A stretch of DNA of 64,000 bases. It comes from Dysgonomonas sp. BGC7. Lineage in GTDB: Bacteria > Bacteroidota > Bacteroidia > Bacteroidales > Dysgonomonadaceae. A program made the position numbers and the translations under genes. Below, piece after piece: positions 958 to 38,340 of this stretch. The stretch spans positions 1 through 64,000 of the forward strand of contig NZ_CVRP01000003.1 in NCBI RefSeq assembly GCF_001261735.1, read 5' to 3'. The notes below the pieces were generated by a model. That model had not been told where the DNA came from, searched no databases, and was given only the letters and a program-made list of their open reading frames with translations. Numbering within the stretch: position 1 is the stretch's first letter; every line of letters starts with the position of its first letter.

Positions 958-2967
958 ATGCAAAATGAGGATGATTTGAGAGGACTTGCCAAAGTCATGG
1001 AGTTTATGAGAGCCATAAGTATTTTATTCGTTCTGATGAATATTTATTGGTTCTGCTATCAGACAATACACGAGTGGGGAATCAATATAGGAGTGGTAGA
1101 TAAAATTCTAATGAATTTTAATCGTACCGCAGGATTATTCAATTCAATCCTGTGGACGAAAATATTTTCTGTGATTTTTCTTGCTCTGTCCTGTCTGGGA
1201 ACAAAGGGTGTAAAGGAAGAAAAAATCACATGGAATCATATCTACGTGTGTCTTGTATTGGGATTTGTGTTTTTCTTTTTGAACTGGTGGCTTCTTTATT
1301 TGCCACTTCCTAAAATAGCTAATGCAAGTTTTTACATTTTTACTATTTCGGTTGGCTATATTTTATTATTGATGGCGGGTACATGGCTGAGCCGTTTACT
1401 AAAAAACAACCTGATGGATGATCCGTTCAATTACGAAAACGAATCCTTTATGCAAGAAACCAAGCTGATGGTAAATGATTATTCGATAAATCTGCCAACG
1501 AAATTTTGGTACAAAAAGAAGCAATGGAAAGGATGGATAAATGTAGTGAATCCGTTTCGGGCAGCTATTGTGTTGGGTACTCCGGGTTCAGGTAAGAGTT
1601 ATGCCGTTGTTAACCAATTCATCAAACAACAGATTGAGAAAGGTTATACAGGTTATATTTACGATTTTAAGTTTCCTGACCTTTCTACTATTGCCTATAA
1701 CCATCTGTTAAACAATAGAGAAGGTTACGAGAAAGTGCCTACTTTTTATGTGATAAATTTTGATGATCCTTCCCGTTCGCATCGTTGCAATCCGATTAAC
1801 CCTTCTTTTATGGATGACATCTCGGATGCTTATGAGAGTGCATACACGATAATGTTAAATTTGAACCGAACGTGGGTGCAAAAACAAGGAGACTTCTTTG
1901 TGGAATCTCCAATTATCTTATTCGCTGCAATTATCTGGTACTTGCGAATTTATAAGGATGGAAAGTATTGTACTTTTCCTCATGCCATAGAATTTTTGAA
2001 CAAGAGCTATGAAGATATTTTCCCGATTTTGACTTCGTATCCAGACCTAGAAAATTACCTTTCGCCCTTTATGGATGCGTGGAAATCCGGAGCTGCCGAT
2101 CAACTTCAGGGGCAGATTGCAAGTGCTAAAATACCGCTTTCTCGTATGATTAGTCCGCAATTATATTGGGTAATGTCGGGTGATGAATTTACATTGGATA
2201 TTAACAACCCTGACGATCCTAAAATATTGGTAGTGGGTAACAATCCCGACCGTCAGAATATTTATGGAGCGGCATTGGGATTATATAACTCCCGAATCGT
2301 CAAATTGATTAATAAGAAGGGGCAACTCAAAAGTAGCGTTATAATTGATGAGCTACCGACAATCTATTTCAAAGGGCTTGACAACTTGATAGCTACTGCC
2401 CGAAGTAACAAAGTTGCAGTTCTACTTGGTTTTCAAGATTTTTCTCAGCTAAAGAGAGATTATGGTGATAAAGAAGCTGCTGTAGTAATGAATACCGTCG
2501 GTAATATCTTTTCGGGACAAGTGGTTGGCGACACAGCAAAAACTTTGTCTGAACGTTTTGGAAAAGTGTTGCAGAAACGCCAGTCTATGACCATAAACAG
2601 AAATGATAAATCAACTTCCATTTCTACGCAATTGGATAGTTTGATTCCTGCGTCGAAAATAAGTAACTTAACACAAGGGATGTTCGTGGGAGCGATAGCA
2701 GATAACTTCGATGAGCGAATAGAACAAAAGATTTTTCATAGTGAAATCGTTGTCGATAATGAGCGGGTAGCCACTGAAACGAAAGTGTACAAGAGAATAC
2801 CTGTTATCACCAACTTTGTGGATGAGTACGGTGTAGATCGCATGAAGGAAATGATTAAGGAGAACTACGACCGTATCAAAGCTGAAGCCAAACAGATAGT
2901 CGTTGAAGAGTTACAACGTATAAAGGACGATCCGGAGCTTTGCCATTTGTTGCCGAAAGAGGAGTAA
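958..2967 (+). CDS. mobC: Conjugal transfer coupling protein MobC (TraG/VirD4-type ATPase)
   Basis: This 669-residue protein has the YWFCY motif at residues 30-34 that names the N-terminal domain of Bacteroidales MobC proteins. Several membrane segments follow in the first 150 residues. The ATPase domain has Walker A GTPGSGKS at about 207-214 and Walker B VIIDE at about 461-465, followed by a conserved stretch (ATARSNKVAVLLGFQDFSQL). Proteins of this family couple the relaxase-DNA complex to the mating channel at the inner membrane, using ATP. It lies 33 bases after the relaxase gene on the same strand. Length is normal for the family and nothing looks broken. Confidence 0.93.
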   Translation: MQNEDDLRGLAKVMEFMRAISILFVLMNIYWFCYQTIHEWGINIGVVDKILMNFNRTAGLFNSILWTKIFSVIFLALSCLGTKGVKEEKITWNHIYVCLVLGFVFFFLNWWLLYLPLPKIANASFYIFTISVGYILLLMAGTWLSRLLKNNLMDDPFNYENESFMQETKLMVNDYSINLPTKFWYKKKQWKGWINVVNPFRAAIVLGTPGSGKSYAVVNQFIKQQIEKGYTGYIYDFKFPDLSTIAYNHLLNNREGYEKVPTFYVINFDDPSRSHRCNPINPSFMDDISDAYESAYTIMLNLNRTWVQKQGDFFVESPIILFAAIIWYLRIYKDGKYCTFPHAIEFLNKSYEDIFPILTSYPDLENYLSPFMDAWKSGAADQLQGQIASAKIPLSRMISPQLYWVMSGDEFTLDINNPDDPKILVVGNNPDRQNIYGAALGLYNSRIVKLINKKGQLKSSVIIDELPTIYFKGLDNLIATARSNKVAVLLGFQDFSQLKRDYGDKEAAVVMNTVGNIFSGQVVGDTAKTLSERFGKVLQKRQSMTINRNDKSTSISTQLDSLIPASKISNLTQGMFVGAIADNFDERIEQKIFHSEIVVDNERVATETKVYKRIPVITNFVDEYGVDRMKEMIKENYDRIKAEAKQIVVEELQRIKDDPELCHLLPKEE

Positions 2968-2971
2968 ATGG

Positions 2972-3000
2972 TTAGAGCCGCATTTAATCTGCGGCTCTAA
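2972..3000. terminator. Perfect 10-bp hairpin between convergent genes
   Basis: TTAGAGCCGC and GCGGCTCTAA form a perfect 10-bp stem around a 9-base loop, four bases after the mobC stop and just before the stop of the convergent CoiA-like gene. Neither strand has a clear T run, so termination is inferred from position and stem strength. Confidence 0.5.
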
Positions 3001-3003
3001 CTA

Positions 3004-3822
3004 TTATCTACGCCATTTTTTACGATATATTTTGACTGGATAGATAGACCTCTTTTTTCTATAATATATTGGTCGCTGCATATTTCGTTGTCTTTGTTTT
3101 TGCGTTTCTATATATTCTTGTTCCATTTCATCCATAAATGCAGTAACTCGCTCGCTCCACTTCCCATTTAGAACAGTCTTAACGAAGGCCCCTCGCGGTA
3201 TTTCCGCATATACAGCATTATATTCGTCATGGCTAGGAAATAGGCAATAAAGGTTTCTACGAATAGGATCGGCACTGGCGACATTGTCGAGGCCTAGAAA
3301 GTCGAACACTACTGGAACCGAACTTTTCAGCCAGTTGCTAGGAAAAAACTCATATCCAAATTCGGCTTTTCTTATACCCGGTTTCAATTCTATTGAACCA
3401 AATTTTCCACCCTTAACAAAGCGTGGAAAGTCCCGTGATAGTCGTGTCCCATCGACAACCCACACCATCTTTTTATAGAATTCCTCTCGTGAAATACGTT
3501 CCTCCGGATTGATAAAGGAATGTTGAAACTCTATAACCAGTCCGTGTTCGGTTCGTACATCCGCTATATGTTTCTCTCCAGTTTGTTCATCGGGCAAGAA
3601 AATTTCCTGCCATTCTGCGGGAAATTTATTCTTCCATGTACGATGCCATTCGGTTTCAGTCTCCCACCAGCTATCGCACATTCTCATATTTTTATGCGCC
3701 CAATGATGTGTTTTTTGAATACCGCATTTTGCAATAACCGAAGCACCACATCCAGGACACACCGCATCCATAAGATCGGGCATAGCTTCCGTAGGTTTAT
3801 CGTTTATCAGTGCAAAACGCAT
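3004..3822 (-). CDS. CoiA-like nuclease-fold protein
   Basis: This 272-residue protein has the layout of the competence protein CoiA family. A zinc-finger-like CPGC (residues 22-25) and a His cluster (HHWAH, 39-43) lie at the N-terminus. A restriction-like core follows, in which HIADV supplies D88 and VIEFQHS supplies E98-x-Q100. CoiA-family proteins have a PD-(D/E)XK-type fold, and this copy has Gln where the classical motif has Lys. The C-terminal tail is very basic. It is the last gene of the five-gene minus-strand block, 30 bases after its upstream neighbour. In Bacteroidales ICEs such proteins are common accessory genes; their role in transfer or defence is not established. Family assignment is fairly secure, function is not. 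Confidence 0.7.
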   Translation of the reverse strand: MRFALINDKPTEAMPDLMDAVCPGCGASVIAKCGIQKTHHWAHKNMRMCDSWWETETEWHRTWKNKFPAEWQEIFLPDEQTGEKHIADVRTEHGLVIEFQHSFINPEERISREEFYKKMVWVVDGTRLSRDFPRFVKGGKFGSIELKPGIRKAEFGYEFFPSNWLKSSVPVVFDFLGLDNVASADPIRRNLYCLFPSHDEYNAVYAEIPRGAFVKTVLNGKWSERVTAFMDEMEQEYIETQKQRQRNMQRPIYYRKKRSIYPVKIYRKKWRR

Positions 3823-3852
3823 ATAAATATCAATAATTATTAAAAATATCTT

Positions 3853-4398
3853 TTATCGGTCACTTTTTATCCATTTAAAGCAGTGCATATTACCTAAATC
3901 AATTCGCATAATATATTCGTCTTCGCCCATAAACTCATCTAAAAACCTTTCGGTAAATCCACAACCTCCAGAAGCCTTTGCTTTTTCTAAAACATTCACA
4001 AGGGGATAAAAAGAATACCTATACTGACCGGGACTTCTATGTTCGTCAATTTTTAGATTCTCTTTTGTATCACAGATTATTAAAGAGCCTTTTCCATCAC
4101 TAAACCTTCTTGCACATTCCAATCGTCCTGTAAAACTTGCTATTTTACCATTCTTACTAAGTCTTTCGCACGCCCTAAATAAAAATGGTCGTGTTGTGGG
4201 CAAATAATTCTTTAACACAATATCCCACACGTCAAATAAGGCTTTTCCTTTTCCGGAAGCATCGGTACAACACCACTCAATAATAAACCCTCTGGTCAGT
4301 CCAATTATCTCCGAACCTTTCTGCAAAATATCAATTAGATTTTGGGCTATTTCATCTTTCTGATTTTTTGACAATCTATATTGGAATTTATCATTCAT
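3853..4398 (-). CDS. Unknown protein; candidate ADP-ribosyltransferase fold
   Basis: I do not recognise this 181-residue protein as a whole. Its motif order resembles R-S-E class ADP-ribosyltransferases. There is an Arg in FLFRAC (R75), then an SFT step (S88-F89-T90) followed by ECARRF and a Gly-rich turn into SLIIC, where ARTs have S-x-S/T...A..F. Near the C-terminus is EDEYIM (E159-D-E161), in the place of the catalytic E-x-E strand. These are visual similarities only. Its start overlaps the stop of the upstream HEPN gene by 8 bases, so the two are probably translated together. An effector or toxin role acting with the HEPN protein is inference. It could instead be an unrelated small protein. 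Confidence 0.55.
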   Translation of the reverse strand: MNDKFQYRLSKNQKDEIAQNLIDILQKGSEIIGLTRGFIIEWCCTDASGKGKALFDVWDIVLKNYLPTTRPFLFRACERLSKNGKIASFTGRLECARRFSDGKGSLIICDTKENLKIDEHRSPGQYRYSFYPLVNVLEKAKASGGCGFTERFLDEFMGEDEYIMRIDLGNMHCFKWIKSDR

Positions 4399-5263
4399 CT
4401 GTACTGACCTTTTTTATTTTACTCAAATCATTAATTGTAGCTTTTAATACCTGCCATGATATTTTAGCAGTATCTATGTCTGGATTGAATTGGCTACTCA
4501 TTTGCTGGTAAGGATGAATATAATTTCTAAAATCTCTCAAAGAATGGCTAAATTTTTTCACATCCAATCCAAGAAATCCAATATTATGAGCAACATCTAT
4601 AAGGTTGTTTAAAGTCCAATTCTGAAATTGCAAGACCTTTCCAGTTTCCTTATCCCTTGGACTTGAAGGCGATTGATTAAATTCTTTCATATTTTTCAAT
4701 GCAACACCTAATAATAATCCTTCTAATACACTACCACACATGATTATAACAGAAAGAGAAGCTCCTGTCTTTATACTCTTTTCTATCTCAATTAATCTTT
4801 GATTTAGAACATCAAGTACTAAAGTATCTATGCTCAATTTTTCTAACGATATATTTTGATATTCTTTTTTCAAAAAATCTTTCTCGGCATCCACTGAATC
4901 TGCATCTACCGTTTTATCGGGCACTCCCCTCAAACGATTGGCTATTCTTAAGCAATCATTAAATAAAATAGCATCCGTTTTAGAATATTCTACTCCCTTG
5001 ATTTTTTGGTGTGCTTTTCGATAAGCAAGTAATTCATTAATTAAAGTTCCAACGGCTTTATCCGATTCCAAATGCCAAAACGCTCTTAAACGATTCGCTT
5101 TAGAATCTCCGAACATTTCATATTTTGATGTATAAATATCAACATGACAAACATCAAAAATAAACTGTTGAAAAGACGGGTTTGAGAAATTCAACACATA
5201 ACCACTACTCATTTCAAACAATGTTTCTAACATTAATTTTTCTGGTTGTTTTATGCTTGCCAT
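4391..5263 (-). CDS. HEPN-domain protein with an abortive-infection-like N-terminal domain
   Basis: The 290-residue protein has two parts. Residues about 8-85 contain GYVLNFSNPSF, VDIYTSKY and SKANRLRAFW. This pattern recalls N-terminal domains of predicted abortive-infection proteins (my recollection, not a search). Residues about 145-285 look like a HEPN domain, with an amphipathic helix (CGSVLEGLLL) followed by RDFRNYIHP. There R243 or R246 with H250 fits the R-x(n)-H motif of HEPN RNases, although the exact spacing varies within the family. It is the first gene of an overlapping pair with the candidate ADP-ribosyltransferase downstream. Likely role: RNase or ligand-binding partner in a two-gene defence or toxin-antitoxin unit. 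The HEPN call is moderately secure; the function is inferred. Confidence 0.65.
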   Translation of the reverse strand: MASIKQPEKLMLETLFEMSSGYVLNFSNPSFQQFIFDVCHVDIYTSKYEMFGDSKANRLRAFWHLESDKAVGTLINELLAYRKAHQKIKGVEYSKTDAILFNDCLRIANRLRGVPDKTVDADSVDAEKDFLKKEYQNISLEKLSIDTLVLDVLNQRLIEIEKSIKTGASLSVIIMCGSVLEGLLLGVALKNMKEFNQSPSSPRDKETGKVLQFQNWTLNNLIDVAHNIGFLGLDVKKFSHSLRDFRNYIHPYQQMSSQFNPDIDTAKISWQVLKATINDLSKIKKVSTDE

Positions 5264-5282
5264 TTTTTATCTTTATTAATTA

Positions 5283-6068
5283 CTATATTCTCCCTCTTTT
5301 TTTTGCCAAATATGCGGATAAGGAGAGAGATAAACCAACCAACAACTCTACCTCATCAAAGTCAGGATCACCACCTTCTCTTAAATGCCGACCTTGCTCT
5401 GACGAAAATCCCCATATTTTTTCAATGACTATATCCAATGGCGAAGGCACAATAGCCCTGTTTTGCTTAATTAATTCACCCAATGTTTGCTTCCTATTCC
5501 CTACGATTTCCCTTGCAATACACTCTAAACAAGCTAATGAATGCTGAATAGCTCCTGTTTTATCTGGACTTGGTTTTTTTGATAGATCACTGATGGCTTC
5601 TGATATCTCATGCTTCGCAGTATCAAAGCCATTCTTGATTACTATTTCTTTTGATTCTTTCAATTTTTGTTCAAATTGATTATCGCCTCTAAAGACTATC
5701 TTTCCATCTTCAAGTTTCCATCCGATACCTCTTTCAAGGAAAAAGTCGTTTATTTCTGAATCAAAATCAGTTTGTTGAGATTGAAATTTTCGTGATAGTG
5801 CTTCAATAACATCATAAACTTTCCACCAATCACAGTTTGAAATCAGTTCTCTTATTTCCATATCAATATTGGGAAATTCACTCCAATTACCGTCGTCTGG
5901 AGAAACTCGTAAAACTTGACAAATAATAGGTCTTATTTGTTTGGGCGTAAACCCTAATGCGTATAAGGTTTGTATAACATAACTGCGAAGGGCATCAGGA
6001 GCATCTTCTCTAATTATAATTTCTACTTCTTTCCCAGAATATCCTTCTCTTTTTGAAAAACTGTTCAT
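5283..6068 (-). CDS. AbiJ-like protein (AbiJ N-terminal domain type plus HEPN-like C-terminus)
   Basis: The N-terminus (FSKREGY at 4-10, IREDAPDALRSYV, then NWSEFPNI and WWKVYDVIEAL by about residue 110) matches the conserved signature of an AbiJ N-terminal domain class. The C-terminal third (GAIQHSLACLECIAREIVG, IEKIWGFSSEQGRHLREG, ELLVGLSLSLSAYLAKK) has the helical pattern of the HEPN-like domain usually paired with it. No R-x(4-6)-H motif is obvious there, so it may be non-catalytic. The length of 261 residues is slightly short for the family but complete. AbiJ was first described as a lactococcal phage-abortive protein. Here it lies 19 bases upstream of the HEPN gene and 135 bases downstream of the nuclease/NTPase gene on the same strand, so it could share their transcript. 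Confidence 0.65.
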   Translation of the reverse strand: MNSFSKREGYSGKEVEIIIREDAPDALRSYVIQTLYALGFTPKQIRPIICQVLRVSPDDGNWSEFPNIDMEIRELISNCDWWKVYDVIEALSRKFQSQQTDFDSEINDFFLERGIGWKLEDGKIVFRGDNQFEQKLKESKEIVIKNGFDTAKHEISEAISDLSKKPSPDKTGAIQHSLACLECIAREIVGNRKQTLGELIKQNRAIVPSPLDIVIEKIWGFSSEQGRHLREGGDPDFDEVELLVGLSLSLSAYLAKKRGRI

Positions 6069-6203
6069 CTATTTTTAATAATTTATTTCTAAATCAAGTG
6101 GTGTATGCTTTTGCAATATCCTTAATTATTGCACTTTACAAAAGTAATAAATAATAAAATATCATATGAATCCTTCTGTTTTTGTTTTCTTTAATCTTGC
6201 AAA

Positions 6204-8603
6204 TCAATCTGACTCTTCGCTTTCTCCTATCTTCATTTCAAGCAACTTTTTGTATAATGCTTTTTTTTCAATAGGGTCTTTCACATCCTTAGATAGATAT
6301 TCCGCCATAAAACCATCAAAATATTTATTAAATCTTTTTACATAGTTTTCTGATCTTTGAGTTAACTCTGGATCGGTGTTATTTATTATTGTTCGTAATG
6401 CTAAATATATTCTATATAGCAAGTTAAAATTATTTTCCTCGAATGCTTTTTCGTAAAGCCATTCTATTTCGTTTGGCATTTGAAAAAAGCATTTTTGAAT
6501 TGATTGTACAAAAGGTTCAATTACACCTTCGTGTCCACTAATTATAGAACCAACCCCATCTAAATCGAAGCTTTCCAATGCTTTTATGTTGTTTAACGAT
6601 CTAACATCTGCTCTGCGAAGTAACTCTTTGCTTGAACCTACTTCATATAAGAGATGTAAATGAAAAGCATATATAGAGTATTCTTTATTATCAACTAACC
6701 CCAGTGGATATGCAGCTAGTTGAGATAGAATTACATAAGGTAAAAAATCAGCAATAAAACCTCCTTCGTTTATATCATCATCAAAGTTCATTTGAATATG
6801 TCCGACACCTTCTACATACATTAAAGTTTTTGTTCCTTTTTCAATCTTCTCTAATAGTGGCGGCATTTTTAATAATTCTTGAACTAAGTTGGAAAATAAT
6901 TCAACTTCATTGGCTTTTGCTATTTCCAATAAAACTCCATTTGCAACAATATCGCAATAAGGGATTGATATAGTTGTATCAAGAAGTAATTTGCATAATT
7001 CAGTTGTCGATTTCTCCTTTTCTTGTATCATCATTTTAGTAATTAGAGATATTGAATGCACTGCGATTAATTCTTGAATCTTAGGGTAAATAATAGTCAT
7101 TCCATTTCGGATTTCACGAAAAACAGCAATAGATGATTTTATTAAATCATTAAAATCATCTGGAAATTTTTTTTTGAAAATATCAGTTGTTATTGCTCCA
7201 CTACCTGAAGCCATTATACTTAGATCAATGTCTTTTTTTCTCAACTCACTTTCTATAAAAAAGCAATACGTAATTTTTCTATATAAATCATGAATTTGTT
7301 TTGTATAGGTTTTGTTAGATGTGATCGCTTTTAGTAGATTCAAGTTTGGAACAGCATCAATTTTTGTAAATTGACCGTCTTTAATCCCTCCATGATAAAG
7401 AGAAACTAAATGTCGTAGAATACGAGGTTCACGATATTCTGGTGTATAGTGCCCTCCATGCTCAATTAACACCTTATACTTATCAAAAATTGAACTGTTT
7501 GTTATATCATATTCTTCATCGTTAAGTTCATCTAATTGGATTAATTTACTTTGGTCTCCAATAATTGTTTTATATTGTCTATTCTCAACAAAAGCAATTC
7601 TTTTATAATTAAACTCGTCTATGCTATATAATGTGTGATGATTTACTCCTTTAAAAATATCTATTAACTCTATAATTTCGCTCTTAATGGATTCAGGAAT
7701 ATCGTTGTTGAAATTATCTAATAGTAAGTAAAACTTACCATCAGGCAAATGAATTAATGAATTAATTAGCCATTCTCTGATTTTATCTTTTGTAATCAAA
7801 ACTTTAGTGTTTTCGGTAAAGTGATTCGCCAATTGCTGAAAGATTGAATAATTATGGTCATTGCAATCTAAATAAAGTAAGAAGTTTTTTTCAGATTTTG
7901 TTTTGTTAAAAAACTGATACAATAAATTTGTTTTTCCAGTGAAAGCTGAACCAACAATCCCTATTAAAGCTGCCCCGTCGGTAAAAAGAGTTTGTATTTG
8001 TTTTAAACATTGTCTTTCAATTTGAAAGTCAATGCAAATCGGTTTTGTAAAGTCATTAACCGTTCCCAATAATCTTTCAAATTTCACTTCCGTTATTTGG
8101 TTAATTATTTTAGAGAATAGATCGGGTTCTTTATTTAGTAAAACACTAATTGCATCTTTAAAGTCATTTATTGCAAGTTGAAAAGAGTTATCAATTAGGT
8201 TCTGTATATACTCCAGATCAACATTCGTTTTGCTAATATTTTCTTTAGTGTATGTGTTGTAGAATAGATTGTCTTCGCCATTTGATATCAATGTTAGTGG
8301 AGGCATTGGATGAATCAACCTTGCATAAGATATACCCTGTGAAATATCTTCATCGGTAAGAGTTAATCCTTCTCTTTTTAATTCTAGAAGGATCGTATTT
8401 TTATCATCAACAGTTAAAAGAACATCAAAAATAGCTCTTGCTGGATTAACAGAAGGTTCTTTTAAATTAACAACAACATTGTGATGTCCAAATTTTATGC
8501 TGAATGACTTTTGATATTGAACATTAACCATTCTAAAGGTCGGAAAAACAGAGGTCAAGACTCCGTCAATTCTAGCTTCTAATGTTGCCTCATTTTTTGC
8601 CAT
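6204..8603 (-). CDS. PD-(D/E)XK nuclease fused to a P-loop NTPase with helical C-terminus (putative defence protein)
   Basis: This 799-residue protein starts with a restriction-type nuclease domain: D60 in AIFDVLL, E74-x-K76 in LLELKRE and a QxxxY motif (Q89 to Y93). This arrangement resembles HsdR N-terminal and related nucleases. A P-loop ATPase follows, with Walker A GSAFTGKT at 218-225 and Walker B FYLLLDNF with D296. The remaining 450 residues are mostly helical without a motif I recognise; repeats or a sensor domain are possible. The architecture of effector nuclease, NTPase and large C-terminal sensor recalls STAND/Avs-type antiviral proteins, but I cannot assign it to a named system. 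The start agrees with MAKNEATLEARI and is followed by an uninterrupted frame. A possible promoter lies about 190 bases upstream (8797-8828). Confidence 0.7.
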   Translation of the reverse strand: MAKNEATLEARIDGVLTSVFPTFRMVNVQYQKSFSIKFGHHNVVVNLKEPSVNPARAIFDVLLTVDDKNTILLELKREGLTLTDEDISQGISYARLIHPMPPLTLISNGEDNLFYNTYTKENISKTNVDLEYIQNLIDNSFQLAINDFKDAISVLLNKEPDLFSKIINQITEVKFERLLGTVNDFTKPICIDFQIERQCLKQIQTLFTDGAALIGIVGSAFTGKTNLLYQFFNKTKSEKNFLLYLDCNDHNYSIFQQLANHFTENTKVLITKDKIREWLINSLIHLPDGKFYLLLDNFNNDIPESIKSEIIELIDIFKGVNHHTLYSIDEFNYKRIAFVENRQYKTIIGDQSKLIQLDELNDEEYDITNSSIFDKYKVLIEHGGHYTPEYREPRILRHLVSLYHGGIKDGQFTKIDAVPNLNLLKAITSNKTYTKQIHDLYRKITYCFFIESELRKKDIDLSIMASGSGAITTDIFKKKFPDDFNDLIKSSIAVFREIRNGMTIIYPKIQELIAVHSISLITKMMIQEKEKSTTELCKLLLDTTISIPYCDIVANGVLLEIAKANEVELFSNLVQELLKMPPLLEKIEKGTKTLMYVEGVGHIQMNFDDDINEGGFIADFLPYVILSQLAAYPLGLVDNKEYSIYAFHLHLLYEVGSSKELLRRADVRSLNNIKALESFDLDGVGSIISGHEGVIEPFVQSIQKCFFQMPNEIEWLYEKAFEENNFNLLYRIYLALRTIINNTDPELTQRSENYVKRFNKYFDGFMAEYLSKDVKDPIEKKALYKKLLEMKIGESEESD

Positions 8604-8796
8604 TTGTTACTATTATTTTATTTAATGATGATGTGTAATGTATCCTTCGCTACTGAATTTCTCATTAATTTACCGTTCTCTACAGATTTTATAACAATAT
8701 ACAGACTTTTTCTTTTGCTCATTATCACGATCATATAAATTTCACAAAAAACAGATCTTTCCCGATAGAACAGTAAAGCGGGAAGTAAAAACACCC

Positions 8797-8828
8797 CAAA
8801 TCTAAAACCCTCCCTAGACAACTCCAGA
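8797..8828 (-). promoter_or_regulatory. Possible promoter of the minus-strand defence block; 8604-8926 otherwise without a gene
   Basis: On the minus strand TAGATTTG (8804-8797) fits the Bacteroidota -7 consensus TAnnTTTG. TCTG (8828-8825) lies 20 bases upstream, one mismatch from the -33 element TTTG. It would start transcription about 190 bases before the nuclease/NTPase gene. In the rest of the 323-base gap I see only a short unsupported 71-codon frame and a small inverted repeat, GCATTA/TAATGC, at about 8891-8906 before the DUF3945 gene. Confidence 0.35.
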
Positions 8829-8926
8829 CACAAGCTGCCATTCGTTTAAAACCTTGCAATCAGTCCATTACTTCGTTTTATATTCGCTCTGCATTAATAG
8901 TAATGCAGAATAAAACATCATTTATT

Positions 8927-10477
8927 ATGGATCAAAACAAAGTAAAATCCGAAGAGCCTAAAGTCTTACTGACCCAAGGCGAAGATGGCAAACTAAAAGT
9001 CATCACAGGGGAGCAGGACGGTAAACTCAAAACCGTTGAACCCACCAAAGAAAATTCCGACCAGTTTTTGAAGGTTGACACCAACAGCAACTTTCTGGAA
9101 AACTTCTTCAAAAAGATGTCGGCACAGTTCAATCATCCCTCACATACCGGTGTTTATGCCGTCGGGATGTCAGCCGTAGATAAAATAGCGGCTTTCTTAG
9201 ACAAACTTATTCGCATCGACCACACCGACAAAGCCCTCGATCCGTATCGCCTTAAATTTGATGGTAAGGTAAAGATACATATTGAGCTAACGGGCAAGTT
9301 CCAACCTTTGGATCTCAATAAGATCGATTGGAAAGAAAGTGAAAAGCTGGGACTCTCCGGTGAGAAATTACAGGATGCCCTCAAAGCGATGGTTTATGGA
9401 CACAAGTCACCCGGTCTGGTGGATATCAAACCTACTATTGATGGAAATGAGTTTCCGATGCAAGCTCGTTTGTCATTAGAACCACAGAAAGATGGCAGTA
9501 TCAAGTTAGTGACACACCCCAAGCAGGAACAACCCGATTTTGAGAAACCTTTTATGGGTGTGGTCTTTTCCGAACAGGATAAAGAACAACTCCAAAAGAC
9601 AGGGCATGGGGCACGTGTATTTGAGCTTGAGATCAACGGAGAGAAAATACCTTCAGTTATCTCTCTCGATAAACTGACGAACCGCCTTGAAGCTGTACCA
9701 CTCTCCGAAATCAATATTCCGCAGACGTTGAAGAATGCCCCTCTTTCTCCCGAACAACAACAGGGCTTGAAAGAAGGCAAAGCCGTATGGGTTGAAGGAA
9801 TGGATAAAAAGGTGAAGTCGGGAGAAGAACCCCAGAAGATTGACCGCTTCGTACAATTCAATGCAGTCAACAAAAACTTCGATTTTAAGTTCAGTGACGA
9901 ACAACGTCAGCAGCATAATCAGCAGCGACAAGCCAAACAAGGAGAAGGGCAAGAAAAACCACTTCCCAAAGCCCGCAAGATGGATGAGGTCTGGGTTTAT
10001 TCCAAACAAGGAGGTGTACAACTTAGTAAAGAAGAATTTACCAAGCTATGTAACAAGGAACCGATTTTTGTAGAGGGTATGCAATCCCGTCCCAAACAAC
10101 CACAACCCGATGCTTCGGGAGCACAAAAAGTAGAAGCTACCGATCAGAAAGGGCAAAAATACAATGCATGGGTATGGATTGATGAAGACAAGGGCAAAGT
10201 CCGCCATACCTCTAAACATCCCAACCAGATACGAGCCATCGAAGCAAAACAAGCGGCAAAAGATTCTCAGAAAGTGACTCCTGCTACCGAGAGTAAAACA
10301 CAGGTGGCTGTCAATAACGAAGGCAAGACCAACGAAGCGACCAAACATTCTAAGGAGCCGCTAAAGCAAGGTCAGACACAACCTACCGCCAAACAAGTAG
10401 AGAAGAAAGAGCAGAAACAACAGGAACAAAAACAATCTCCTGCTGCTCCTAAAAAAAGCAAAGGACGTAAGATGTAG
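8927..10477 (+). CDS. DUF3945/DUF4099-type ICE protein
   Basis: This protein belongs to the DUF4099/DUF3945 family found just upstream of topoisomerase III in Bacteroidales ICEs. I place the start at 8927 (MDQNKVKSEEP); an ATG at 8903 in frame would add eight atypical residues. The N-terminal part (about 50-180) contains TGVYAVGMSAVDKIAAFLD. The middle (about 200-370) is made of repeated segments of the type GVVFSEQDKEQLQKTGHGARV, with a second similar segment about 60 residues later. The last 100 residues are low-complexity and rich in Lys, Gln and Glu, ending KKSKGRKM. No enzymatic motif is visible. Its function is unknown; conserved position suggests a role in DNA processing or excision. 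A leader repeat and topB follow. Confidence 0.8.
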   Translation: MDQNKVKSEEPKVLLTQGEDGKLKVITGEQDGKLKTVEPTKENSDQFLKVDTNSNFLENFFKKMSAQFNHPSHTGVYAVGMSAVDKIAAFLDKLIRIDHTDKALDPYRLKFDGKVKIHIELTGKFQPLDLNKIDWKESEKLGLSGEKLQDALKAMVYGHKSPGLVDIKPTIDGNEFPMQARLSLEPQKDGSIKLVTHPKQEQPDFEKPFMGVVFSEQDKEQLQKTGHGARVFELEINGEKIPSVISLDKLTNRLEAVPLSEINIPQTLKNAPLSPEQQQGLKEGKAVWVEGMDKKVKSGEEPQKIDRFVQFNAVNKNFDFKFSDEQRQQHNQQRQAKQGEGQEKPLPKARKMDEVWVYSKQGGVQLSKEEFTKLCNKEPIFVEGMQSRPKQPQPDASGAQKVEATDQKGQKYNAWVWIDEDKGKVRHTSKHPNQIRAIEAKQAAKDSQKVTPATESKTQVAVNNEGKTNEATKHSKEPLKQGQTQPTAKQVEKKEQKQQEQKQSPAAPKKSKGRKM

Positions 10478-13581: not shown

Positions 13582-14025
13582 ATGGCAACAAAACCAAATA
13601 CGTCAGCCGTAAAATTCTCTTATTTTCGGCTATCCCTATTATCTTACCTACGAGATACCCACCCCGATAAAACTTCCGACTTCGATTTTATAGCTGTACG
13701 TGGCGATGCTGCGGCAGAGGCGTATAGCCAAGCTATAAAATCAGGTCATACCCACGACCAAGCAGAAGTAATCTCTTCACAAGTCCTGTATGAAGGTTTG
13801 CACTTCTCTACCTACCGAACCCTTGTGACTATTCTCTGGGAAGAATTTTCCGAAGAAGTAAATCCGGCACAAGCCGAAGGCATAGCAATAGAACTATTGT
13901 CTCGACTTATGGGTACAATTCAAAAATACACCTTGTCTGATGATTTTGCCGATACCCCGGAGTATAATCAGTTTTACACGGAACTGACTGGCGAAATACA
14001 AATCCTGCTCGAAAATGGCTTATAA
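13582..14025 (+). CDS. DUF1896-family ICE protein
   Basis: The 147-residue protein has the DUF1896 features: an N-terminal [17 protein letters not shown] segment, then a helical stretch ending with [14 protein letters not shown]. In Bacteroidales ICEs this family is found immediately upstream of the large methylase/helicase gene, as here. Its 3' end overlaps the start of that gene by 11 bases, so the two are probably translationally coupled. Biochemical function is unknown; it may be an adaptor for the large protein. Confidence 0.8.
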
Positions 14026-17000
14026 TAAGAAAGCCCATCTTCGGGACAATATCGAAGCGATCCGCATTGCATTTGCTCTCGATAGAGAAAAAAGACAGGC
14101 TACTGATGCAGAAAAAGAAAAGCTGGCAGCCTATTCTGGTTTTGGTGGGATAAAAGCCGTGTTGAATCCCGCCGCCAAACAGGAAGATATAGCCCATTGG
14201 AAAGCTTCAGAGCATGATCTGTTCCCTCTGGTAACTGAATTACATGAAGTGTTACGGGAGGCAGCTAAAGACGATGCCGAATATAAACGTTATGTCAGTT
14301 CGCTGAAAAATTCGGTGCTGACTGCTTTTTATACTCCAAAGCCTGTTGTAAATGCTTTGTCACTGGCTCTGAACAACAGTGGAATTAAACCTCTTCATTT
14401 TCTTGAACCTAGTGCCGGAGCCGGAGTATTTATGTCCTCATTCAAAGAAACCGTACCGGATGCTGAAGTTACAGCCTTTGAAAAAGACTTGTTGACAGGT
14501 AAAATTCTCTCACACCTGCATCCACAAGATAAAATACGGATTGAGGGTTACGAGAAAATGGAAGGACGATACGCACAACATTATGATGTGATAGCCTCTA
14601 ACATTCCTTTCGGGGATGTCGCTGTATTTGACCCTTTGCTCTCCAAGCATGAGATACCCGCAGTTAGCCAATCGACAAAGGCAATCCACAATTACTTTTT
14701 TACCAAAAGCGTGATGGCTGCACGCGAGGGTGGATTAATAGCCTTTATCACTTCGCAGGGTGTTCTCAACTCGGAACAAAACAAACCAATTCGTGAACAC
14801 CTGATGAATAGTTGCAATATCGTATCAGCTATCCGTTTACCTAACAATCTGTTTACAGAAGAAGCAGGAACGGAGGTCGGTAGTGATTTGATTATCCTGC
14901 AACGCAAGAATTTAACGATCTTGCCGACCCAAAGGCAGCAGGATTTTATCGAATCCCGCAAACTATCCAATGGCATATTCGTAAACAATCTCTTCAAAGA
15001 CTTCGACAGGGTGGTACAAACGGATGTAAAAGTAGGTACAGACCCTTACGGTAAACCTGCAATGGAATTTACCCATTCCGGAGGAACGGAAGCTATTGCA
15101 GCTACACTGTATCGGATGCTGAATGAAGATTTTTCCAAACATCTCGATCTGGAGCATTACTTATCTCATGCTCCCCAAATACAAGAACAGCAGCCTATTG
15201 TAACTCCGATAGAGAAAATCTCTGTTTCGGATATGGTGGAGCAAAGTCCTAAGTCGGCTTATGAACCTACACTCGAAGATTTAGTCCATTTCTATCCTTT
15301 TGGAGAAGCCAGAAACCGAAAGGTATGGGCGGAACTGTCCGAGCAGGACAAGAAAGCTGTTGTGGAGCCACGTATTAACTCTCCAAAAGAAGAAACGAAA
15401 GTTATACCTGAAACAAAAAAAGATACAATCATCAAGGATAAAGCCAGTGGCTTGTTTGTAAATAAGGACACAGGAGAAGTAATAGAACAAAAGAAAGTAT
15501 CGCCTCCTGATATCCAGCAACAGCCGATTGTAACCTTATACGACCTGTTTGGTTTTTCTGCCGAAGAACGTTCACAAATCAAACAACCCAAACATTCCCG
15601 TCGTCGTATGACTATGCCACAGCAAAAGGGAGTACAAGCTAAAAGTCCGTCAACAAGTAAACCGACCGAATCACCCGAACAACGCACTGAGCGATTGGAA
15701 AAAGAACGTGCAGAGCGATTGAAGCCCATTGCGATGCCTATACCCGAAAACGGATTGCCGAAACACTATAAAAATGGCTCATTGGTAACCGATACAGATA
15801 ATCGTATAGGTTATTTGCGGGATATGGACGGACATCAACCGATGTTCCATCCTTTGGAACTGTCACCGAGCCAGCAAAAACAGGCATCGCTCTATATCGA
15901 AATACGTGACACCTATAATCATTTGTATAATAACGAAGCCGATACACTCAAAGAAAATCCCGCATTACGGCAGATGCTTAATCGCCTATACGACGATTTT
16001 ACACAAAAGTTCGATAATCTGAACGATGCAAAGAATCTCGATCTCATCAAGATGGATACCGCAGGACGAGAAATACTTTCGTTGGAACGCTACCGAGAAG
16101 GTAAAGCGATCAAGGCTGATATTTTCGAACGTCCTGTAGCTTTTAATCCCGATGAGATTTCTAAAGTGGATAATGCCTATGAAGCTCTTGTCTCCAGTCT
16201 GAATAAATACGGAACGGTGAATTTAGATCACATGGTCTCTCTGACAAACAATACGCAAGAGGGCATACTTGATGAACTGAAAGGTAAGATCTATTTCAAT
16301 CCGCTTGTCGGGAGCTATGAGGTAGCAGACAAGTTTGTATCGGGTAACGTTATTTCAAAAGCTGACGAAGTACAAAATTTTATCGACCGCAATCCTGACC
16401 ATGAAGCTGCCAAAGATTCTCTGACCGCTCTACAGGATGCTATACCCAAACCGATAGCTTTCGACGATCTGGATTTCAATTTCGGGGAACGGTGGATACC
16501 TTCGGGTATCTATGCTGCTTTTGCATCCTACCTTTTTGAAACGGATGTAAATATACATTATGCCCCCAGCAGAGATGAGTTCAGTATAAATTCTGATACT
16601 AAAAATGCCAAAATCAAAGACCAATATGCTGTTAAAGGGGAGAGCCGTACCTTCGATGGCATTGCCCTGATGCGTCATGCCTTGCACGACACCACTCCCG
16701 ATATTACAAAAACAATCCGGGTAGATGGTAAAGAGACAAAGGTACGTGATGGAGAAGCCATTCAGCTAGCCAACACCAAGATAGATGAAATGCGTAACGG
16801 CTTTTCGGAATGGCTCAGAGAGCAGACTCCCGAATTTAAGGACAGGCTTGCCGATATGTATAACCGCACGTTCAACTGTTTTGTGCGACCCGAATATGAC
16901 GGTTCACACCAGACTTTTCCCGGACTCGATCTGAAAGGTTTAGGTATTCCTGACTTATATAATAGCCAGAAAGATGCTATCTGGATGCTTAAATTGAATG

Positions 17001-19657
17001 GAGGAGGGATCATTGACCATGAAGTGGGTGGCGGTAAAACGCTGATTATGTGCTGCGGTGCAATGGAAATGAAGCGGCTCGGATTGGTGAACAAACCCCT
17101 TATCACAGGGCTGAAAGCCAATGTTCACGAAATTGCACAGACCTTTTGTACGGCATACCCTGATGCAAAGGTACTCTATCCGGGTAAAGAGGATTTTACA
17201 CCTCAGAACCGCAATCGTATTTTCAACGAAATGAAAAACAACAATTGGGATGCAGTGATTTTAACACATGAGCAGTTTGGAATGATTCCTCAATCTCCGG
17301 AGATACAACGAAGCATCTTACAGGCTGAGCTCGACAGTGTGGAGGAAAATCTCGATGTACTACGCTCGCAGGGTAAAGAGGTATCGAGAGGGATGCTCAA
17401 AGGTTGTGAGAAACGAAAAGCCAACCTTGAAACTAAATTGGAAGGAATAGCTCACCAGATTGAAAACCGTAAGGATAACATGTCGGATTTTCGAATGATT
17501 GGTATAGACCATTTGTTCGTAGATGAATCTCACAAATTTAAAAACCTGACTTTTACCACCCGCCACGATCGTGTGGCAGGCTTAGGCAATACCGAAGGTA
17601 GTCAACGGGCACTCAATATGCTTTTTGCTTTGCGTACCATACAAGAACGCATAGGCAAGGATTTAGGAGCTACTTACTCATCGGGAACAACGATTTCTAA
17701 TTCATTGACAGAGCTATATCTTTTATTCAAATACCTTCGTCCCAAAGAATTGGAAAGACAAGGTATCAACACCTTCGATGCGTGGGCGGCTATTTTTGCT
17801 AAAAAAACCAAAGATTACGAGTTTTCGGTTACCAACCAGATTGTACAAAAAGAACGTTTCCGCTATTTTATCAAAGTACCGGAACTGGCTTCTTTCTATT
17901 CTGAGATTACTGACTATCGAACAGCACAGGATATTGGTATAGACCGTCCCGAAAAGAACGAAATTTTACACAACATACCACCTACACCCGACCAGCAGGA
18001 GTTTATCGGTAAGCTGATGGAGTTCGCTAAAACAGGAAATGCCACTCTTTTAGGGCGTGCACCGCTTTCGGAACGGGAAGAAAAAGCAAAAATGTTGATA
18101 GCAACCGACTATGCCCGAAAAATGTCGCTCGATATGCGGATGATAGACCCCGACAAATATGGCGATCATGTGGACAACAAAGCCAGCCATTGTGCGGCAT
18201 CCATAGCTGACTATTACAAAAAATACGATGCACAGAAAGGAACACAATTTGTATTTTCGGATTTGGGAACCTATAAACCAAACCAATGGAGCCCATACAC
18301 CGAAATAAAACGAAAATTGGTAGAGGATTACGGCATCCCTGCATCCGAGGTACGGTTTATTCAGGAGGCAGGCAGCGAGAAAGCACGCAAAGCGATGATC
18401 AAGGATATGAATGCGGGTAGAATTCGTGTTATGTTCGGCTCGACTGAAATGCTGGGAACAGGTGTAAATGCTCAGAAACGTGCGGTAGCGATTCATCATT
18501 TAGACACACCGTGGCGGCCGTCAGATCTGGAGCAACGCGATGGTAGGGCGATACGCAAAGGCAATGAAATAGCCAAACTGTATGCTGATAATAAGGTCGA
18601 TGTGAAAATATACGCCGTAGAAAAATCATTAGATGCTTACAAGTTTGGCTTACTACACAACAAGCAATTATTTATCAAACAGCTTAAAAATAATAATCTG
18701 GGTAGTCGTACTATCGACGAGGGTAGTATGGATGAGAAAAGTGGCATGAACTTTTCTGAATATGTGGCTATCCTGTCGGGGAACACAGAATTGCTGGAGA
18801 AAGCAAGGATAGAAAAGAAGATAGCTGCTTTAGAGAGTGAAAGGCAAGCTTTTGTTCGTGGAAAATCATCGAGTCGATACAAGTTGGAAAACATCATGCA
18901 GACCGTAGATTCCAATAAAGGATATATTGATCGCATTTCCAAAGATGTGGAAGCCTTCAACAGCAAGGTACAGGTTGCTCCTGATGGGACACGGCTTAAT
19001 CCTGTCAAATTAGATGGATTTCAAGCCACTGATCCTATTGCTATTGGAAAGAAGTTGAATGAAATAGCAGACAAAGCACGTACACATGGAGCCCACGAGA
19101 AAATCGGTTCGTTATATGGATTTAATTTATTGGTCAAATCAGAGACTACGAATAAAGACGGCTATGATTTGGTACAGAACCGATTTTTTGTGCGTGGAGA
19201 GGGGCAGATACTCTACAACTATAATTACGGGAGTTTGGCGGCAGATCCTAAAACTGCTTCGATGAATTTTCTGAATGCACTCGATTCTATGCCCAAACTC
19301 TTAGAAAAGTACCAACAGGATACTGACAAGCGGATGCAGGATGTACCCGTTCTAAGGCAGGTAGTGGAAGGTGTGTGGTCGAAAGAGAACGACCTGAGGG
19401 ACTTGAAAACAGAACTCATAGCTTTAGAACGTAAGATAGAGCTTTCATTAAAACCTATCGAACAAAGCGAAGGACAAGAAAATGTTTCTGAAAAGAATCA
19501 GGCTCAATCTCAGAATAACCCAAAATCGACAGTGATTCAAGATGCCCTTATGCCAAATACTTTGCAAGGAGTGAAAGACGTTATGGGAGACAGATTTGTT
19601 ATTGCATCGGTGGGTAGTAGTCATCCTAAGGAAGAGAAAAGAGGTATAAAGTTCTAA
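14015..19657 (+). CDS. N6-adenine methylase / SNF2-type helicase fusion of the ICE backbone
   Basis: This 1880-residue protein combines an N-terminal methyltransferase and a C-terminal superfamily 2 helicase. The methylase has the SAM-binding motif [11 protein letters not shown] (about 130-140) and a catalytic SNIPFG in place of NPPF/Y (about 195-200). A linker of about 750 residues follows, which includes low-complexity parts near 475-570. The helicase has VGGGKT at about 1003-1008, VDESH at about 1168-1172 and [11 protein letters not shown] at about 1505-1515. Similar giant proteins are found in many Bacteroidales ICEs and in phages; they are thought to protect or remodel transferred DNA, though no direct role is proven. 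The start overlaps the DUF1896 gene. A terminator follows 8 bases after the stop. Confidence 0.9.

Positions 19658-38252: not shown

Positions 38253-38340
<88 letters not shown>

Follow-up and report, generated by a model that had tools for sequence, protein, structure and literature searches.

Cargo hot spots in mobile elements are already known in general. Interchangeable defence cargo is described in Pseudomonas islands and Tn7-like elements (PMC12629846, PMC8649781), a CoiA-domain protein is among the validated Escherichia coli anti-phage systems (PMC9519451), DUF4145 HEPN domains occur in operons with restriction-modification genes and also fused to a restriction endonuclease and helicase (PMC3710099), and a Bacteroides integrative and conjugative element (ICE) carries a mobC gene cut short by a reverse-transcriptase gene (PMC5729914). 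We analysed a stretch of 64,000 nucleotides from Dysgonomonas sp. BGC7 (positions 1 to 64,000 of contig NZ_CVRP01000003.1, hereafter the window), in which five minus-strand open reading frames (ORFs; g1 to g5) lie between mobC and a DUF4099/DUF3945 gene of an ICE (Table 1). A sequence-only reading had proposed that this ICE cargo site is a hot spot for antiphage modules, and that one of these may be a new multi-gene system. The former proposal was well supported. The site resembles the known defence hot spots in that fixed backbone genes flank interchangeable defence genes; a search of the open-licence literature turned up no account of this slot as such a hot spot, nor of an ADP-ribosyltransferase there. 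The latter proposal fared poorly: the slot in this element is probably a mosaic in which three or more conflict units, independent of one another, have gathered, rather than a single five-gene system, and we read these units as CoiA plus g2, g4 beside g3, and g5 alone.

The layout given in the sequence-only reading was confirmed, with mobC and the DUF4099/DUF3945 gene both on the plus strand and with gaps between g1 and g5 of, in order, 30, −8, 19, and 135 bases, the negative value being an 8-base overlap of g2 and g3. The left neighbour scored 1110 bits against the Bacteroidales MobC model NF041326 (cut-off, 900). Contig 3 begins where the window does, so that the element is interrupted inside mobB. 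The same genome contains another ICE (G000:C11) with a 97% identical MobC, and DNA comparison showed that window positions 17 to 20,769 are homologous to it at 82 to 86%, with two gaps, 2,981 to 8,814 (the only long one) and 15,160 to 15,208. The backbone homology on the mobC side stops at position 2980; the DNA on either side of the exchanged stretch is 84 to 86% identical between the two ICEs. At this slot the sister ICE bears four other genes, all on the minus strand, encoding SIR2 (402 aa), HerA-like (623 aa), Ymh (268 aa), and AbiH (456 aa) proteins, of which AbiH and Ymh are per-protein matches, while SIR2 and HerA are our reading together with a one-member HerA tally. The G+C content of the cargo interval (0.329) is below that of mobC (0.384) and that of the DNA after the interval (0.435).

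Table 1. Features at the mobC-DUF3945 site (window coordinates)
Feature	Position	Strand	Basis or content
mobC (coupling protein), left-hand border of the slot	958..2967	+	NF041326
Inverted repeat TTAGAGCCGC ... GCGGCTCTAA just 3′ of the mobC stop	2972..3000		read by eye
Exchanged cargo stretch	2981..8814		no homology to sister ICE G000:C11
g1, CoiA-like, 272 aa	3004..3822	-	CoiA_N and CoiA nuclease-like domain
g2, 181 aa	3853..4398	-	no profile match; ADP-ribosyltransferase-like signature
g3, 290 aa	4391..5263	-	helical N-terminal part and C-terminal HEPN-like domain (FRNYIHPYQ)
g4, 261 aa	5283..6068	-	AbiJ_NTD4 N-terminus; C-terminal part with invariant R227-H228
g5, 799 aa	6204..8603	-	PD-(D/E)XK-type nuclease, P-loop NTPase and long C-terminal part
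DUF4099/DUF3945 gene, right border of the site	8903..10477	+	DUF4099 and DUF3945 matches; 91% identity in sister ICE

The site was then compared across 68 other mobC loci, 69 with the window. A DUF3945-like match lay downstream of mobC in 39 of the 69 loci and was lacking in 30. The delimited intervals used were 24 of the 39, the window included (all those with mobC at or above 79.5%, plus L080 at 77.7%), and 15 loci were left out (L081, L176, L177, L181 to L186, L188, L189, L203, L204, L206, and L210). Some mobC loci may be copies of one ICE, as L079 and L197 to L199 share one MobC identity; L061 (G019, a 3.2-kb contig) and G704 stand outside the 69. The 24 intervals measured 162 to 7,490 bp (median, 3,436 bp) and had a G+C content below that of mobC in 22 cases, and the cargo differed almost completely in the 23 intervals other than the window's. 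Cargo proteins were seldom alike, with eight similar pairs at a BLASTP threshold of 1e-5, among them the CoiA and g2 pairs shared by the window and L153. The interval of L165 (G676:C15), of 162 bp and with no ORF, is a near-empty version of the cargo site and a good reference for the ancestral junction. These results, with the exchange between the sister ICEs, showed that the mobC-DUF3945 interval is a cargo slot of this Bacteroidales ICE family.

A good part of this cargo is defence-like. The family scan took in 69 cargo ORFs with a length of 100 aa or more, leaving aside one antisense ORF in L153, and single-protein tables were made for 19 of these 69 proteins, from 14 of the 22 other gene-holding intervals. 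Per-protein matches comprised AbiH and Ymh in L076, HEPN_Toprim in L160, a YobI-type ATPase in L154, PDC-S31 in L164, and PDC-M01A/PtuA in L169, while L192 holds a subtilase (S8 peptidase) and an AAA ATPase, with the IteS and IteA models each matching one member, and one protein of L159 gave sub-threshold SMC and PHP matches. Among the families listed for the 69 proteins were C5 methylases, GmrSD_N, Vsr, AbiEii, AbiJ_NTD3, ABC-3C MC3, DUF3732, multiubiquitin, and E2 proteins, together with the NCBI anti-phage models IteS, IteA, Ppl, and HerA. Judging from these tallies, protein size, and sequence, L153 would carry an ABC-3C system, L080 AbiE, L076 SIR2 and HerA, and L077 and L193 a methylase each.

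A search for relatives of g1 to g5 spanned all 69 loci, some of them as short stretches (L178, L180, and L191, 2.6 to 3.3 kb). In the 68 other loci it returned CoiA plus g2 in L153, g2 in L052 and L053, and nothing else; g3, g4, and g5 were absent from all 68 (tblastn, E ≤ 1e-4, in the stretches fetched), and megablast of the block against plasmids gave no match. As regards genes travelling together, CoiA and g2 recurred jointly in L153 and g3 stood beside an AbiJ-type gene in 4 of 41 loci, and the five-gene set was found in none of these loci. The protein classes that the sequence-only reading had assigned held to different degrees, firmly for the AbiJ-like protein, through a conserved stretch and a model for HEPN, through one domain above and one just under the cut-off for CoiA, and through kept residues with sub-threshold profiles for the PD-(D/E)XK/P-loop protein.

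In g1, CoiA_N reached 33.3 bits (cut-off, 26.3) and CoiA_nuc 19.2 bits, just below its cut-off of 20.3; no solved relative by sequence was convincing. The protein is akin to CoiA-domain proteins in its CoiA_N match, and it differs in that it adjoins g2 in two ICEs. The second of these, L153, is of the same genus and is the only other of the 69 mobC loci with the pair; it holds at the same place an 87% relative of g1 with one internal stop, and after CoiA and g2 it has genes for 657, 162, and 395 aa, which we read as an ABC-3C system. In L052, g2 is followed by genes that by eye are similar to those of L153, and in L053 by unrelated genes. The silent-site difference (pS) between the window and L153 was 0.36 for CoiA and 0.45 for g2 compared with 0.60 for mobC, a pattern suggesting that the two backbones had already diverged when the pair moved.

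ADP-ribosyltransferases bear the signature R - S-x-[ST] - E-x-E. In g2, R75, S88-x-T90, and E159-x-E161 were invariant in 6 of 6 sequences, residue F89 within S88-F89-T90 being Y in the relative on the viral contig L212. The R-S-ExE pattern, composed after g2 had been seen, was present in 6 of 959 ORFs, every one a g2 family member, and in 8 of 50,000 shuffles. The motif is the part of the earlier suggestion of an ADP-ribosyltransferase that stood: no family in any profile library scanned matched g2, no solved relative by sequence was convincing, and the structure model (built on two sequences; pLDDT, 38.4) was unusable and was not used. The assignment, which is drawn from the motif, is therefore a guess.

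The distribution of g2 was narrow. It was found in 2 of 149 genomes of the order, 3 of 101 of the family, and 2 of 198 and 2 of 385 of the phylum, counts that each include the window's own genome and come from samples that overlap in part. Within the window's class five distinct copies were found, that of the window among them, and all adjoin the 3′ end of mobC, at 61 to about 890 bases from it; CoiA sits between mobC and g2 in the window and L153, and g2 is directly beside mobC in G020, G243, and G704. Four of these copies run opposite to mobC; the fifth, in G704, is broken and shares the mobC strand. One of 72,556 plasmid records had g2, a Sphingobacterium plasmid in which it is next to a different, short mobC, and the scan of the viral collection returned L212 only, where the g2 relative (326 to 931) directly precedes genes reading as small and large terminase. 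On the plasmid (Sphingobacterium faecium pWB1, L088), the g2 relative at 4343 to 4876 lies between tet(X2) and the short mobC, and pWB1 also bears floR, estT, and erm(F). The dN/dS of g2 was about 0.18 against L153 and about 0.14 against L052, and g2 is under purifying selection.

We tentatively consider, with clearly less than even confidence, that g2 represents a so far undescribed family of small ADP-ribosyltransferases tied to the conjugation genes of Bacteroidia elements, an element-borne enzyme with CoiA as an occasional partner, which would mark a host or invader target and protect the niche of the ICE against phages or rival elements. The homologue beside terminase genes on the phage contig is perhaps attack or counter-attack in the same contest. 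Possible, though on balance unlikely, is that CoiA and g2 form a resident module of the conjugation region acting in transfer (for example, on rival elements, incoming DNA, or coupling-protein function), so that only g3 to g5 would be exchangeable defence cargo. The constant position of all five class copies near the mobC 3′ end, whatever follows them, and the lower silent-site divergence of CoiA and g2 relative to mobC would fit such a module. Yet g2 is missing from 65 of the 69 mobC loci, and of the four carriers two entered the set on account of their g2; as most mobC loci do without it, g2 is not needed for transfer; moreover, the broken, same-strand copy in G704, the internal stop in the CoiA of L153, and the g2 relatives on the Sphingobacterium plasmid and the viral contig speak against a resident role. 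This reading overlaps with that of a mosaic, because it concerns only one unit of the mosaic.

HEPN domains carry a conserved R-x(4-6)-H motif. The g3 protein gave only a sub-threshold match to DUF4145 (13.7 bits against 23.1), thus missing the Pfam gathering score. Its relatives, from 41 loci across many phyla, share the stretch F245-R-N-Y-I-H-P-Y252, invariant in 27 of 27 sequences. R246 and H250 are likewise invariant in all 27, but are spaced R-x3-H, and R243-x6-H250 fits the motif spacing, yet R243 is not invariant. With the confident structure model (pLDDT, 89.8), HEPN-type chains topped the re-alignment, while Foldseek with this model returned nothing at E ≤ 0.001 and no solved relative by sequence was convincing. 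A predicted HEPN domain is thus supported by the conserved stretch and the model. Compared with DUF4145-like HEPN proteins of restriction loci, g3 is alike in the HEPN-type stretch and predicted fold and in the frequent restriction neighbours of its relatives; it differs in missing the DUF4145 cut-off and in having no restriction genes beside it in the window. An AbiJ-type gene adjoins g3 in the window and, in either order, in the four other g3 loci mentioned above, three loci pairing g3 with AbiJ_NTD3 genes. At tblastn E ≤ 1e-3, the other four window genes were not beside g3 in the 41 loci, except in L028, where a g4-like sequence in two pieces lies beside the g3 relative. Across L001 to L041, the HEPN-like domain comes with two kinds of N-terminal half; in L033 and L036 to L038, where the gene follows one for an Eco57I-like methylase, it lies close to the start of a protein of about 1080 aa, and a neighbour in L008 reads like HsdS by eye.

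The g4 protein matched AbiJ_NTD4 far above the cut-off (95.0 bits against 34; E, 8e-27) and PADLOC PDC-S32 over residues 1 to 256 (5.8e-24), and it is alike to the AbiJ family and PDC-S32 in both respects. A C-terminal HEPN fold with catalytic R and H is a further mark of the AbiJ family, and in g4 R227-H228 was invariant in 5 of 5 aligned sequences; no solved relative by sequence was convincing. Relatives occurred in 24 plasmid records, 21 of which covered at least 80% of the protein, and those listed are 23 to 49% identical, many being annotated AbiJ-NTD4. Two plasmid contexts were examined, with AbiE in Methylocystis and assorted genes in Pseudomonas; the arrangement of the window, in which g4 stands 19 bases before the HEPN gene g3, is absent from both.

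The g5 protein matched phrog_26510 (1.6e-33) and gave sub-threshold matches to HSDR_N_2 (23.4 against 25), HSDR_N (20.1 against 25.1), and AAA_14 (below its cut-off); NB-ARC, at 13.8 bits, was short of 23.5. Residues of the PD-(D/E)XK type (D60, E74-x-K76) and the Walker A motif (G218..GKT) are kept in two distant relatives, 24% identical, on a Ti plasmid and a Rhizobium plasmid. In all, 15 plasmid records held relatives, 12 of them spanning 80% or more of the protein, and Agrobacterium accounted for 11 of the 15. Two full-length relatives are the best annotated: that on pTi_LBA4404 overlaps a TIGR02391/Ymh gene, confirmed as Hypoth_Ymh, near AbiE and ABC-3C, and that on Rhizobium pMK-3 overlaps a TIGR02391 gene near AbiEii. 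The Sinorhizobium relative has no TIGR02391 gene after it on the same strand, and the Pseudomonas one is followed by a gene for a 356-aa protein without a Pfam match, and hence the pairing is not obligate. The plasmid orphans annotated 'type I restriction endonuclease' match at 95% coverage and 23 to 24% identity and have the same PD-(D/E)XK and P-loop residues as g5, which in the window precedes g4 by 135 bases, unlike those overlapping TIGR02391 genes. On pTi_LBA4404 (L085, 5344 to 14973), AbiE, the g5 relative with its overlapping TIGR02391/Ymh gene, and the ABC-3C system lie side by side.

As a candidate for the R subunit of a type I restriction enzyme, g5 was rejected. Its HsdR scores miss the cut-offs, no SWI2/SNF2 or ResIII helicase match was found in it, and none of the five window genes belongs to a methyltransferase or specificity (HsdM/HsdS) family; its PADLOC MTase_II match is weak (0.0085) and confined to the nuclease part (residues 48 to 123). 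The viral collection yielded nothing for g5, genomes of the class scanned with phrog_26510 and the g5 profile gave only weak or partial matches besides the window, and no solved relative by sequence was convincing. The best of these weak or partial matches, in G169 (E, 2.4e-13), has neighbours that read like Dnd genes by eye.

Several points weigh against the mosaic of conflict units as set out here. For every unit, we infer both the defence function and the individual mechanism. Only 5 of the 14 singly scanned other intervals (L076, L160, L164, L169, and L192) had a firm defence-type match, the tested proteins of L155, L156, and L161 matched nothing in Pfam or PADLOC, and arsenic-resistance, flavin-reductase, and reverse-transcriptase families were also among the listed cargo families, so not all of the cargo is defence. 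Restriction genes were near 17 of 41 g3 loci compared with 4 of 60 mobC loci, a link that is partly circular, as the queries came from the g3 loci L016, L019, L026, and L036 (plus Dcm from L077), that falls to 13 of 37 without these four loci, and whose mobC-locus control was not matched for species or length; the first nine g3 loci (L001 to L009) gave no restriction match in the neighbour search. Finally, the tight spacing of g1 to g4 and the g2/g3 overlap would also suit one operon.

The restriction link also bears on a reading in which a restriction-modification locus was lost, with g3 left as its orphaned HEPN part and the block decaying. This would suit the 17 of 41 loci (4 of them by construction) and an interval without a methyltransferase. 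We regard this as improbable: all five ORFs are long and uninterrupted, the HEPN stretch of g3 is intact, g2 is under purifying selection, the closest g3 relatives are also without restriction matches, and three loci pair g3 with AbiJ_NTD3. Least credible, and unlikely, is a single new defence system transcribed as one operon, with g5 sensing and cutting DNA and g1 to g4 as effectors: one strand is shared by all five genes and the first three gaps are tight, but neither the 68 other mobC loci nor the 41 g3 loci gave a second copy of the set, relatives of g2, g3, g4, and g5 each have different neighbours, and the common orientation says little, because cargo at the slot is mostly on the minus strand whatever its kind (51 of 74 ORFs of at least 100 aa in the 24 intervals; the first gene in 16 of 23 gene-holding intervals).

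If the slot is indeed a mosaic, each unit would sense infection or foreign DNA independently. The HEPN/AbiJ unit (g3 and g4) would cut RNA and stop growth, that is, act by abortive infection; in g5, NTP-dependent recognition would release DNA cleavage; and CoiA would serve as a nuclease and g2 as a modifier that uses NAD. Several unrelated units would together block a wider range of phages, and a host keeping the ICE would be favoured.

As to other features, the inverted repeat 3′ of mobC is a possible terminator; L052 mobC has a similar repeat 3′ of the gene by eye, and a consensus terminator scan found none at 2972..3000. A Bacteroides-type promoter pattern occurred 11 times in the window against 2.8 expected, with one site on the plus strand of the cargo interval and none on its minus strand, and sigma-70-like sites gave no signal in the region, with 32 found where 27 were expected. 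A TACTTTTG box was seen, by eye only, in the gap between g5 and g4. In the backbone, the small difference from the sister ICE at 15160 to 15208 comprises 49 bases in the window against about 199, an ORF of 1880 aa at 14015 to 19657 has DNA matches in other ICEs, and the homology to the sister ICE ends at about 20769, probably near the right end of the element. The only tRNA gene of the window is tRNA-Ser at 38253 to 38340. Among the other intervals, the tested gene or genes of L158 also lacked a family match, and L156 and L158 share a 54% identical gene; L155, L156, L158, and L161 are candidates for unknown cargo functions.

When elements are compared at this address, five closely spaced genes sharing a strand do not resemble a single system. 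The most novel part of the block is g2, which, if the assignment is true, would be a testable new enzyme family linked to conjugation. With borders that are conserved and contents that vary, some intervals (L155, L156, and L161) holding genes without a Pfam or PADLOC match, the mobC-DUF3945 slot is a fixed address at which to seek defence genes of Bacteroidales.

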